From: Acinetobacter sp. CS-2
GTDB lineage: Bacteria > Pseudomonadota > Gammaproteobacteria > Pseudomonadales > Moraxellaceae
Reading direction: 5' to 3'
Assembly (NCBI RefSeq): GCF_016599715.1
Contig: NZ_CP067019.1
Span: 3,100,001 to 3,164,000 of the forward strand
DNA: 64,000 bases
Shown here: piece by piece, positions 28,978 through 57,239 of the stretch
Layout of the letters: every line of letters begins with the position of its first letter
Position numbering within the stretch: position 1 is the stretch's first letter
Translations under genes and position numbers: made by a program
Notes under the pieces: generated by a model
Told to the model about the DNA's origin: nothing
Databases searched by the model: none
What the model saw: the letters and a program-made list of their open reading frames with translations, nothing else

Positions 28978-30680
28978 TATTGTTCCAAATGGATCACGCG
29001 TAGTTGTAAACTGACGTTGCCATTAAATTCATTTTTATCAATTTCATAGACCAGTCGTACACTGCCCTGCATGGCATCAAATTCAAACTTGTCACGTGCA
29101 TTAAAGGCGATGGCTTCCACAATTTGACCATCTTGCAAAGCCAGACGCAGCTTTAAATGCATTTCTTTCAGCCAGCGATAATCCAGAACCTTAAATATCC
29201 CTTCAAAAATCGGCGATGGAAACTTTTGCCCCCAGGGGGTTAAATTTTGCAGAAAATCGACTGTTTCAATGTGAAAATGTTCTGTCGGTAATTCACCATC
29301 AGTCCATAAAGTGGCCTGAAACAGTGACTCATCCATATTTGAAATTAAAGCCTCAAAGACCTGCTTAAATTCATCAAAATGCTGTTTCTGAATGGTCAAA
29401 CCGGCAGCGGCGGCATGTCCGCCAAAATGGCTGACCAAATGGGGATACTGCTCGGCAATCATTTCAATCGCATCGCGTATATGTACGCCCTCTATAGAAC
29501 GGGCAGAGCCTTTAATATGTATACCATCTTCATCGGAGGCAAAAACAATACTGGGGCGATGAAACTGTTCTTTTAAGCGACCGGCCACAATCCCAATCAC
29601 GCCCTGATGCCAATGTGGCTCAAACAGAATGAGCACAGCTGGTAAATGCTCTTGGTCCAGCTCCAGCTGAGTAAGCTCAGACAAAGCCTCCTGTTTCATC
29701 TGGCTCTCGACCTGTCGGCGCTCAGTGTTCAATTGATTTAATTGTTGTGCCAAGGGATAAGCGGTTTGCAGATCGGCAGCCAGCAGACATTCAATCCCTA
29801 TGTCCATGGTTTCCATGCGTCCAGCCGCATTAATCCGTGGTCCCAGAACAAAACCCAAATCTTGAGCATTTAAAGAAGCTGGATCACGTCCGGCAATATC
29901 CAGCAATGTGCTAATTCCCGCACGACACTGATTTTGCCGTATGCGCTTGACCCCGGCATCGACCAGAATACGGTTGTTATAATCCAGGCTGGCCACATCG
30001 GCATAAGTGCCTAAAGCTACCAGATCGAGATATTGGGCCACTTTTGAGGTCGATTTTCCTAATTGGCTGCGATAACTGGACAAATTGGCGAGCAGGTAAA
30101 ATGCCACCCCGACCCCAGCCAAAGCCTTGCTGGGGAATTCACAGCCCAACTGGTTCGGATTGACCACAGCTTCGGCTTTAGGCGTTTCTTTGGTGGTCAG
30201 GTGATGATCAGTAATAATCACCTGCATGCCATGTGCTTGTGCCTGTTCCACCCCGGCATGGCTGGAAATACCATTATCTACCGTAATCAAAAGGTCAGGC
30301 GTGAAATTGGCAAAAGCCAGGTCGGCAATTGCAGGCGTCAGTCCATAACCATATTTAAAACGATCCGGCACCAGATACGCGACATTCGCGCCCATATCCC
30401 GCAAAGCTAAAATCATCAATGCCGTACTGGTGGCCCCATCGGCATCATAATCTCCCACAATGACAATTTTCTTTTGCTGATCAATGGCCTGATCCATCAA
30501 CTGAATGGCAGCATCCAAACCTTTCATGGTCGGCGCTAAAAGATGCTTCAATTTCAGTTCAAGTTCTTGTTCCGATTGCACACCACGGCGCGCTAAAATT
30601 TGCGCAATAAACGGTGACACGCCCTGGAAGTTTTCAGGGCGTGTAATGAACGGTCTTTGCTGAATCAGTGTTTTTGGCAT
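28977..30680 (-). CDS. recJ: Single-stranded-DNA-specific exonuclease RecJ
   Basis: A 5'-3' exonuclease of 567 residues used in recombination and mismatch repair. DHH-family metal-binding motifs are intact: VIVGDYDADGATSTAL (about residues 73-88), LITVDNGISSHAG (about 129-141) and IITDHHLT (about 153-160), with the DHHA1-type SHFGGHAAAAGLTI near 405. I start it at ATG 30680, which overlaps the pdxH stop as TAATG and implies translational coupling. A GTG nine codons earlier is less likely. It is the last gene of a glmM-pdxH-recJ run on the minus strand. Confidence 0.94.
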   Translation of the reverse strand: MPKTLIQQRPFITRPENFQGVSPFIAQILARRGVQSEQELELKLKHLLAPTMKGLDAAIQLMDQAIDQQKKIVIVGDYDADGATSTALMILALRDMGANVAYLVPDRFKYGYGLTPAIADLAFANFTPDLLITVDNGISSHAGVEQAQAHGMQVIITDHHLTTKETPKAEAVVNPNQLGCEFPSKALAGVGVAFYLLANLSSYRSQLGKSTSKVAQYLDLVALGTYADVASLDYNNRILVDAGVKRIRQNQCRAGISTLLDIAGRDPASLNAQDLGFVLGPRINAAGRMETMDIGIECLLAADLQTAYPLAQQLNQLNTERRQVESQMKQEALSELTQLELDQEHLPAVLILFEPHWHQGVIGIVAGRLKEQFHRPSIVFASDEDGIHIKGSARSIEGVHIRDAIEMIAEQYPHLVSHFGGHAAAAGLTIQKQHFDEFKQVFEALISNMDESLFQATLWTDGELPTEHFHIETVDFLQNLTPWGQKFPSPIFEGIFKVLDYRWLKEMHLKLRLALQDGQIVEAIAFNARDKFEFDAMQGSVRLVYEIDKNEFNGNVSLQLRVIHLEQ

Positions 30681-36678: not shown

Positions 36679-36697
36679 AATTGAGCAGAGTGGTAAA

Positions 36698-36835
36698 TCA
36701 AAGGTCTTGCCAACAAAAAGAAAATCATGATCAAAAGATCATTTGGTTCTTTGCTATGATGACCATGTTCTGTGGAACAATTATGTTGACCATCACCTTT
36801 TTACATTGCGTAAAAAGCGGCTACTCCCCAATGAA
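36698..36835 (-). promoter_or_regulatory. yybP-ykoY manganese riboswitch
   Basis: On the minus strand, about 75-210 nt before the GDT1-family start codon, the conserved 5' element TTGGGGAGTAGC (36821-36832) and the conserved 3' element GGCAAGACCTTTG (36699-36711) are present, with GTCAACATA between them as in known members. The family binds Mn2+ and turns on exporters. The gene downstream fits exactly. Confidence 0.85.
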
Positions 36836-37022
36836 GTGCATGCATTTTAAGCTGAAAGATAAAAATTTTCAAATGACTTTAAAAATATCATTTCAGGATA
36901 ATGCTAAACATTGCTACTCATGACAAAAATTGCATTAAAGATCATTTTAAACGGCTGTGTTCAGCGTCTTATCCCTATCATAAGAATGAGTCTGTGTATG
37001 TCTCAACACCAAAGCTTTCATA

Positions 37023-55577: not shown

Positions 55578-56402
55578 TTGCGTATGATACCAAAGAGTAG
55601 CTATCCAAGTGATCAAAAAATTCTAAGAGTCGTTTCAATTAACGTAAATGGCTTGCGTTCAGCAGTGACCAAAGGCCTGCTGGAATGGCTGGAACAGTCA
55701 GATGCAGATGTCATTTGTATGCAGGAAAGCCGGATCACCCATGCGCAGTGGACTGAAAAATTTAGACCTGAAGGCTGGTACACGCACCTGTTCCCAGCAG
55801 AACGTGCAGGCTATGCCGGTACCGCCATTTATAGTCGCCTACCTTTTGCCTCTGTAAAAGATGGTTTAGGCTTTGAACTGGCCGACTCTCAAGGGCGCTT
55901 TATCGCTGCCGAATTTGATCTCGGTTTAGACAAGCCTGTATACATCTGTTCGCTGTATTTGCCTTCAGGTTCATCCGGTGAAGAAGCCCAAGCCCGTAAA
56001 GATCACTTTTTGGATCAGTATCAAGATATTCTCAAACAATGGCGGGATGAAGATAAATCGATCATCGTCTGCGGTGATTACAACATTGTGCATAAACGCA
56101 TTGATATCAAGAACTGGTCGGGCAACCAGAAATCTTCAGGCTGCCTGCCACATGAACGCGCCTGGCTCGATCATATTTATGATGATCTGGGTTATGTCGA
56201 TACTTTCCGTGAAGTGCGCAAGGAAGCCGAACTTTATTCATGGTGGTCTAATCGCGGACAGGCACGTGCCAAAAACGTCGGGTGGCGCATTGACTATCAA
56301 GCCTGCTCACCAGACTGGAAAGCCCGTACTGTCAATGCCTGGGTGTATAAGGAGACCTGGTTTAGCGACCATGCACCGGTGATTATTGATTATAAAATAT
56401 AG
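55578..56402 (+). CDS. xth: Exodeoxyribonuclease III (AP endonuclease)
   Basis: A 274-residue exonuclease/AP endonuclease of the EEP superfamily for base-excision repair. Catalytic motifs: VVSINVNGLRSA (about residues 18-29), CMQESRI (Glu near 49), SLYLPSG (near 118), GDYNIVH (Asp/Asn near 161), and the C-terminal WFSDHAPVIIDYKI (Asp-His near 264). The start TTG 55578 has GAGG 7 nt upstream. ATG 55584, two codons later, is possible. It is divergent from pyrE. Confidence 0.93.
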   Translation: MRMIPKSSYPSDQKILRVVSINVNGLRSAVTKGLLEWLEQSDADVICMQESRITHAQWTEKFRPEGWYTHLFPAERAGYAGTAIYSRLPFASVKDGLGFELADSQGRFIAAEFDLGLDKPVYICSLYLPSGSSGEEAQARKDHFLDQYQDILKQWRDEDKSIIVCGDYNIVHKRIDIKNWSGNQKSSGCLPHERAWLDHIYDDLGYVDTFREVRKEAELYSWWSNRGQARAKNVGWRIDYQACSPDWKARTVNAWVYKETWFSDHAPVIIDYKI

Positions 56403-56414
56403 TCCACAATGCAC

Positions 56415-56440
56415 ATTGAGTGAACTATTGTTCACTCAAT
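56415..56440. repeat. 10-bp perfect inverted repeat after xth
   Basis: ATTGAGTGAA and TTCACTCAAT pair around a 6-nt loop, 13 nt after the xth stop. There is no T-run, so it is a poor intrinsic terminator. It may protect the 3' end of the mRNA or act as a protein-binding site upstream of the GGA-rich RNA unit. Confidence 0.55.
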
Positions 56441-56507
56441 ACAGGCATATAGATTACAAAAGATGTCGAATTTGTGGCTTTTTATATACATGTTTTAAGT
56501 GCATTAT

Positions 56508-56666
56508 TGTTGCACGGCACAGGGACAAGTCAGGATGACTGAAAAAGGACAGGACGCCGTAGGATGAAACAGAATAAAGCACTTCGGTAGCTTATTTTGC
56601 AAGGATGTGACAATGGACGTTGAAATGAGACCCGCATAATCAGGATGATTGAATGCGGGTTTTCTC
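56508..56666 (+). ncRNA. Candidate CsrA/RsmA-sequestering small RNA (RsmY/Z- or CsrB-like)
   Basis: This non-coding stretch carries eight GGA triplets (near 523, 533, 547, 552, 562, 603, 615 and 643 of the 56-kb block). Several sit in hairpin loops: AGTC-AGGAT-GACT at 56528-56540 and AATC-AGGAT-GATT at 56638-56650. A further hairpin has a TTCG tip near 56580. The unit ends in an intrinsic terminator (8-bp stem ACCCGCAT/ATGCGGGT, then TTTTCTC). This is the architecture of RNAs that titrate the translational regulator CsrA/RsmA. I found no clear GacA box (TGTAAG-N6-CTTACA), and the promoter is not clear-cut. A repeat element of the genus is the main alternative. Confidence 0.55.
56630..56666 (+). 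terminator. Intrinsic terminator of the GGA-rich RNA
   Basis: ACCCGCAT (56630-56637) and ATGCGGGT (56653-56660) enclose a small AATC/GATT stem with a GGA loop and are followed by TTTTCTC. Confidence 0.75.
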
Positions 56667-56891
56667 TATTCGTTATCTTTATTTTTTCTTTTCTATTTCT
56701 ATATTTTTTCTATTTTCTATATATTATATTTAGAATAATCATATGGTTCTTATTTATAGCTTTATAATTACAAATCTAAATGTCAGTTTAATGACAGCTG
56801 AATTTTTTAATTTTAATCATTTAATTCACTCTAGAGCTTCTGATGGATTTTCGTTACGCTATTGAAGAATAGAAAATGGAATAATTCACCT

Positions 56892-57239
56892 ATGCTGAAG
56901 ATTTATGGTATCAAAAACTGTAATTCAATGAAAAAAGCCTTTGACCTGCTTAATCAACTCGGTCTTGAATATGAGTTTCACGATTACAAGAAACAAGGCA
57001 TTGCTGCTGAAACGGTAAAAACATGGCTGGATAACGAAGGTCAGGAAGTCATCCTGAATAAAAAAGGCACCACTTGGCGCAAACTGAGCGAAGCGGAACA
57101 ACAAACAGCTTTAAGCAGTGAAGAAAATCTCATTGAAGCGCTCACCCGCCATAACAGCTTAATCAAACGTCCTGTGCTTGAAACTGATTCTGGTTATATC
57201 GTCGGCTTTGATGAAGAAGCATATCGGGCATTAAAGTAA
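56892..57239 (+). CDS. ArsC/Spx-like thioredoxin-fold protein (YffB type)
   Basis: A 115-residue protein of the ArsC/Spx superfamily. It begins MLKIYGIKNCNSMKKAFDLL: only a single Cys is in the position of the redox motif (CNSM), as in YffB-type proteins, so it is not a classical arsenate reductase. Later family blocks are GTTWRKL and LIKRPVLE (about 90-97). I start it at ATG 56892. A TTG-initiated extension of 10 residues has no family support. Function is unknown, and a glutathione-dependent thiol reductase has been suggested for the group. Confidence 0.85.
   Translation: MLKIYGIKNCNSMKKAFDLLNQLGLEYEFHDYKKQGIAAETVKTWLDNEGQEVILNKKGTTWRKLSEAEQQTALSSEENLIEALTRHNSLIKRPVLETDSGYIVGFDEEAYRALK

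Follow-up and report, generated by a model that had tools for sequence, protein, structure and literature searches.

In Pseudomonas, the small RNAs RsmX, RsmY and RsmZ are expressed in a GacA-dependent manner, carry a box of the TGTAAG-N6-CTTACA type, present GGA motifs in hairpin loops and sequester RsmA. Such a GacA/UvrY-type promoter box is usual, though not universal, among the sRNAs that sequester CsrA/RsmA. In Escherichia coli, CsrA is titrated by CsrB and CsrC via many GGA sites, CsrB being longer and having more of them. For Acinetobacter, earlier predictions of RsmA-regulating sRNAs were reportedly made by Kulkarni in 2006, and these may include the crc-linked locus described here.

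Two predicted RsmA-regulating sRNA loci of Acinetobacter ADP1 (119 and 139 nt) are listed in Table 2 of PMC5568370, and in Table 1 of PMC7366521 the Csr RNAs of A. baumannii are given as known from genome inspection and uncharacterised. Passages of PMC12455638 state that the growth gain from gacA loss in A. baylyi requires csrA, and its authors propose there that CsrA-binding RNAs exist in this species and are yet to be identified; as far as these passages go, the gacA/csrA genetics fit a sponge mechanism. Excerpts of two further papers report that A. baumannii requires csrA to grow on rich medium (PMC12802169) and that 674 of its genes are under GacSA control (PMC5295007). In a part of PMC12442408 the RNA connecting Gac and Csr is drawn as CsrB-like. 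When the open-licence literature was searched, no experimental description of the crc-linked RNA was found, most subscription papers and supplementary sRNA tables lying beyond the scope of that search.

The locus lies in a 64-kb stretch of the Acinetobacter sp. CS-2 genome (the window, in which all coordinates are given) and encodes a putative sRNA, referred to as the crc-linked or type 1 RNA. It is like RsmX, RsmY and RsmZ in length, in having several GGA motifs in hairpin loops and in ending at an intrinsic terminator, and its host, like theirs, has GacA and CsrA homologues. It differs from them in being linked to a crc-like gene, in being unmatched by the Rfam models and in lacking the full promoter box within Acinetobacter; a box of the TGTAAG-N6-CTTACA type is found at type 1 loci outside Acinetobacter and at a second type of RNA (type 2, see below). 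With CsrB and CsrC it shares many GGA sites, through which it would titrate CsrA as they do, and a nearly identical CsrA, whereas it is shorter than CsrB with fewer sites and has no Rfam match. The Pseudomonas Hfq-binding RNA CrcZ is likewise a sponge, and the neighbour of type 1 is crc-like; however, the motifs of CrcZ treated in parts of PMC12802169 are A-rich Hfq motifs, unlike the GGA motifs of type 1. Adjacency to the crc-like gene is no evidence of regulation.

The two ADP1 predictions, as far as they are described in PMC5568370, belong to the same functional class and genus as type 1. The neighbour orientations given there differ from those at the type 1 locus of A. baylyi DSM 14961, where the yffB-like gene, the sRNA and the crc-like gene are all co-directional. 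The orientation listed for the ADP1 locus ACIAD0018/0019 would fit type 2 as it occurs in the CS-2 genome.

Features, fold and conservation of the crc-linked RNA

The initial annotation had placed a GGA-rich, terminator-ended RNA at 56508..56666. The place was right; the extent has been shifted, as a few promoter bases had been included and the transcript is most likely 56514-56667. The features of the locus are as follows.

55578..56402, + strand: crc-like gene of the exodeoxyribonuclease III family, upstream of the sRNA (TIGR00633, 232.4 bits; PF03372; annotated xthA in a relative)
56514..56667, + strand: putative crc-linked (type 1) Csr-type sRNA of ~154 nt, with a predicted 5' end at ~56514 and an intrinsic terminator as 3' end
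56514..56560, + strand: closing stem H1, in which ACGGC (56514-56518) pairs with GCCGT (56556-56560); four GGA inside
56528..56540, + strand: hairpin H2, AGTCA-GGA-TGACT, with GGA as the loop; this GGA is present in 24/24 sequences
56569..56599, + strand: spacer hairpin H3, with pairing maintained and sequence drifting
56603..56617, + strand: AAGGATG and TGGACG, GGA motifs that separate H3 from the terminator (conserved in 23/24 and 24/24)
56627..56667, + strand: terminator hairpin with a bulged stem, apex ATCA-GGA-TGAT and tail TTTTCTCT, from folds and covariation
56892..57239, + strand: ArsC-related (yffB-like) gene, downstream of the sRNA (TIGR01617, 91.8 bits; cut-off 75.05)

The gene at 55578-56402 is adjoined by pyrE in divergent orientation, and we take it to be crc from the Acinetobacter literature and from this position beside pyrE. 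A simple promoter and terminator scan listed neither a promoter nor a terminator for the RNA. No frame longer than 10 codons starts and stops inside it, as had been annotated; three open frames begin in the terminator and extend 26-40 codons onward, and the ATG preceding GACGTT is conserved in 9/24 sequences of the 24-sequence alignment.

All eight GGA motifs claimed for about 150 nt were located within 56514-56667 (starting at 56523, 56533, 56547, 56552, 56562, 56603, 56615 and 56643). On the plus strand of the window, the crc-linked RNA is the only place with at least eight GGA per 154 nt; the minus strand has one such place (29748-29956), within a 576-codon open frame on the same strand. 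At least eight GGA were obtained in 174/2000 dinucleotide shuffles and 47/2000 mononucleotide shuffles, and the count was thus rejected as sole proof of a sponge RNA, the dinucleotide figure making it too weak. GGA loops closed by at least four Watson-Crick pairs number two (GTCAGGATGAC and the terminator apex ATCAGGATGAT), and at least two such loops were seen in 24/1000 dinucleotide shuffles. The annotation had counted at least two GGA in loops of 4-bp stems plus a GGA loop in the terminator; the terminator loop was recovered, and closed loops come to only two with the terminator included. Folding of the region, suggested with the annotation, gave an energy z of -2.72, with 3/200 shuffles equally good.

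When 38 genomes including that of CS-2 were compared using BLASTN, the crc-linked RNA was found in 23/24 other congeners and in 0/13 genomes of other families. A covariance model was built from 24 sequences. It finds one copy in the CS-2 genome (170.1 bits) and, as had been proposed for a check over other Acinetobacter genomes, was applied to 175 of these; matches were obtained in 167, with one match each in 162. In a draw of Moraxellaceae the model matched 19/61 genomes, namely 6/7 Acinetobacter and 13/54 others, the latter covering five other genera, one of them on a weak match only (E = 0.002). Because searches of more than 40 genomes, which gave the 167/175 and 19/61 counts, used stricter filters, weak type 1 matches may be missed. 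An exact core pattern of type 1 was found in 109 named stretches, the records being from Acinetobacter, three Alkanindiges, three contigs of MAG KLAP32 and two MAGs named 'Moraxellaceae bacterium'.

None of the eight GGA motifs is missing from more than one of the 24 aligned sequences (23/24 or 24/24 for each). Identity to the window sequence in this alignment was 99.5 % for GGA columns vs 79.9 % for other columns, and among 39 distinct, more distant copies it was 93.9 % vs 66.7 %. Pairing was analyzed in alignment A3, which was fitted to the covariance model and holds 40 chosen loci with 44 matches; the number of distinct rows is 39, as one pair is present twice through two overlapping loci and some copies have the same sequence. 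In this model-fitted alignment compensatory changes were observed in 29/34 pairs, and 96.0 % of cells are paired vs 37.6-44.2 % when the partners are slid. H1 shows both-side changes in 2/5 pairs with 99.5 % of cells paired, and H3 shows them in 9/9 pairs. In the unfitted alignment A1, both-side changes were found in 8/34 pairs and 94.5 % of cells are paired. In an unconstrained consensus fold the terminator, H1 and H2 are recovered, and the covariation term is close to nil (-0.26); H3 is absent from this fold, the alignment being poor in that part, and the hairpin is formed by each of the 24 sequences individually. Judged from the alignments, the retention of GGA while other columns drift on a compensated fold is the pattern of a scaffold that carries putative protein-binding sites in several repeats. 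The crc-linked RNA is a real conserved unit, as decided by conservation and covariation; the GGA count was not decisive.

The genome has one csrA, whose product differs at 2/52 residues compared from 1y00, which we take to be E. coli CsrA. Its GacA homologue scored 267 bits, the next response regulator of the genome reaching 83; the curated cut-off of 280 bits is missed by 62/74 genomes, this one among them. csrA was found in 71/74 genomes searched, including eight Acinetobacter genomes with no type 1 match, and since csrA and the GacA homologue persist in such genomes, co-occurrence says little. In the Moraxellaceae genus g18, the distance between a type 1 homologue and csrA is 162-221 bases in 3/4 genomes drawn (G206 with locus L073, G216 with L071 and G225 with L069; not G191). 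This local link does help the putative partnership with CsrA.

Upstream elements and a second GGA-rich RNA

The upstream region of type 1 contains the following elements (positions in brackets are relative to the predicted 5' end).

56415..56440, no strand: palindrome ATTGAGTGAAC-tatt-GTTCACTCAAT (-99..-74), with 11-bp arms matching at 100 %
56453-56458, + strand: ATTACA, right half-site of a GacA-type box (-61..-56); CTTACA in many relatives
56464-56468, + strand: TGTCG, 3' of the half-site; TG[AT]C[GA] within -56..-43 in 82/98 loci
56501..56507, + strand: -10 element GCATTAT; GCATTAT in 23/24 sequences and GCATCAT in one

The simple promoter scan listed no -35 to match GCATTAT. The 98 loci are the 109 core-pattern stretches minus L243 and L248 (no 5' anchor), L189 and L207 (fewer than 150 bases upstream) and seven loci classed outside Acinetobacter (three of MAG KLAP32, three of Alkanindiges and L244 from a 'Moraxellaceae bacterium' MAG); L233, from a record named Moraxellaceae, was counted among the 98. 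A TACA half-site was present within -66..-53 in 75/98 loci, and the full GacA-type box in 0/98. By comparison, the full box was found at 7/7 loci classed outside Acinetobacter, or 6/6 when L244, itself classed by its box, is left out. Two divergent Acinetobacter members outside the core pattern, G165 and G166, have full-length boxes of related form as judged by eye. GacA dependence of type 1 is doubtful because only the half-site of the box persists.

In many loci the palindrome takes the form TGAGTGAAC-N4-GTTCACTCA. Its arms match at 8/9 or better in 73/98 loci vs 3/784 control blocks, and 16 nt separate it from the half-site in 93/98. It may resemble operators of the DesT/FabR type. The exact sequence GTGAACnnnnGTTCAC occurs once in the genome, at the type 1 locus. 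Within the single genome scanned, a regulon-wide operator found no support: sites with at most one mismatch numbered 11, vs 12 for a reversed control. The palindrome may be a site for a regulator or a hairpin belonging to the 3' end of crc. It has no T-run, and some genomes that have no type 1 carry other inverted repeats 3' of crc (by eye); the fixed spacing to the half-site favours a promoter role.

A weak match of the type 1 model, L080, was traced to a different GGA-rich RNA, type 2. The L080 homologue in A. baumannii (74.4 % identity) lies between an endonuclease gene and gltP.

G000:C1:498687-498860 (= L139:1501-1674), + strand: putative type 2 sRNA with seven GGA; TGTACGAAATGGCTTACA at -75

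A type 2 model was built from two sequences and 39 chosen genomes were searched (34 Acinetobacter and five other Moraxellaceae), G148 (65 % complete; type 1 and crc unmatched) being outside this search. Type 2 was found in 30/34 Acinetobacter genomes, that of CS-2 included, at E-values of 1.4e-5 or lower. The five other Moraxellaceae gave a single match (E = 0.35), located at a type 1 copy. In 28/30 type 2 loci, the position of TGTA-N10-TACA is exactly -75; as background, the named type 1 loci (858,580 bases) contain the pattern 16 times, in part as the boxes themselves. In addition, 29/30 loci contain a CACAACC stretch, which may act as a base-pairing seed to mRNAs. An A-rich stretch was also seen in type 2 by eye.

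Type 2 is present in all seven genomes in which crc has a homologue but type 1 no match. The four with no type 2 (G020, G041, G165 and G166) all match type 1, more weakly in G165 and G166. Thus, at least one of the two sRNAs is present in each of the 34 genomes. In the CS-2 genome, type 1 and type 2 each lie directly 3' of a PF03372 gene in the same direction (55578-56402 in the window and L139:283-1413); this repeated pairing may reflect either duplication of a gene plus sRNA or chance.

Proposed function and alternative explanations

The crc-linked RNA is, with high probability in our view, an independently transcribed sRNA that would sequester CsrA dimers via its GGA motifs in the manner of RsmX/Y/Z and CsrB/C. 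This reading is supported by the near-complete retention of GGA, by a compensated fold that shows GGA in loops and by the one csrA in the genome, which also bear out the sponge-like layout recognized in the initial annotation. Beyond the conserved folded unit, we infer transcription, CsrA binding, titration and the identity of the activator from the class. Type 1 is a likely missing link from the GacS/GacA sensor system to CsrA in Acinetobacter. In the proposed mechanism, the sRNA level would be raised by GacS/GacA (for type 2 the box speaks well for this, for type 1 it is uncertain) or by another input, CsrA dimers would bind GGA in loops and single strands of the sRNA, and titration of CsrA would free the mRNAs that it represses.

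We also considered an Hfq-type base-pairing sRNA, whose GGA stretches would find their partners in pyrimidine-rich sites of mRNAs and for which CsrA titration would not be the main role. UCC could indeed pair with the GGA stretches, and the CACAACC of type 2, kept in 29/30 loci, is seed-like. However, eight short GGA units separated by sequence that drifts look more like recurring protein sites than like a single seed, and what H2 and the apex of the terminator expose is chiefly GGA; we regard this explanation as improbable. Still smaller is the chance that the locus, instead of being a separate regulator, serves the yffB-like gene as its leader or attenuator, or represents a stable fragment derived from the 3' part of the crc mRNA. 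Its place between two co-directional genes, with an end ~225 bases 5' of the yffB-like gene, would suit either, as would a hairpin formed by the upstream palindrome at the crc 3' end, whereas the RNA has its own -10 element and homologues occur in three different surroundings in one genome (G194) and beside csrA in g18.

Inverted repeats and a GGA-rich composition could also point to a dispersed repeat or to a fold with no function, which we consider hardly credible given the single genomic copy, genus-wide conservation and covariation. A dispersed intergenic repeat was rejected on the copy number. The case raised against the annotation, hundreds of dispersed copies with no promoter conservation, is excluded by the one copy in this genome, the single match in 162/167 genomes, the -10 element GCATTAT in 23/24 sequences and the upstream elements.

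Under the CsrA sponge reading, the host would carry two sponge RNAs, type 1 and type 2. Type 2 would most likely be turned on by GacA via TGTA-N10-TACA at -75, and type 1 would probably need another input, perhaps via the palindrome at -99..-74. It is conceivable, though we would not count on it, that the input has been split, GacA keeping type 2 while type 1, its left half-box lost, came under another factor that reads GTGAAC-N4-GTTCAC. If so, two signals, that of Gac and a second one, would come together at CsrA. Two candidates now have loci, folds, promoter elements and a known range, which opens the Gac-Csr link in Acinetobacter to testing, and a sponge with a full GacA box set beside one with a degraded box offers a comparative test of how Csr input is rewired.

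Additional copies and database records

MAG KLAP32 (G194) has four model matches; three of these (L061, L077 and L088) are similar copies whose surroundings differ and all of which possess a full GacA-type box. In one other genome two strong type 1 matches lie 0.4 kb apart, and at L073 and L071 of genus g18 pairs of model matches stand side by side. G198 has two model-matching copies, and elsewhere in this genome another stretch rich in GGA, whose end resembles a terminator and which is unmatched by the model, lies 3' of the crc homologue (L117). The weak model matches L083, L090, L081, L084, L075, L076 and L086, with at most four GGA, were judged by eye to be chance and rejected.

Phage carriage of type 1 was also rejected. 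Two matches are in records named 'Acinetobacter phage MD-2021a', and the one inspected (L125, CAKLQF020000012.1) has the host genes pyrE, xthA and yffB around the RNA and so looks like a mislabelled host contig. Three records of 3.7-4.1 Mb in the plasmid collection (NZ_CP077849.1, NZ_CP104448.1 and NZ_CP064203.1) contain both sRNA loci and look like chromosomes of A. baumannii that were entered there as plasmids.

When Rfam was searched, the window had no Csr/Rsm match at the gathering threshold, the locus had none up to E = 10 and ten related loci had none up to E = 1; the comparison with the RsmX, RsmY, RsmZ and CsrB families that had been recommended was therefore negative for each family, and CsrC gave no match either. 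The same search found a yybP-ykoY manganese riboswitch on the minus strand of the window (36696-36841), with 61.2 bits, above the Rfam cut-off.
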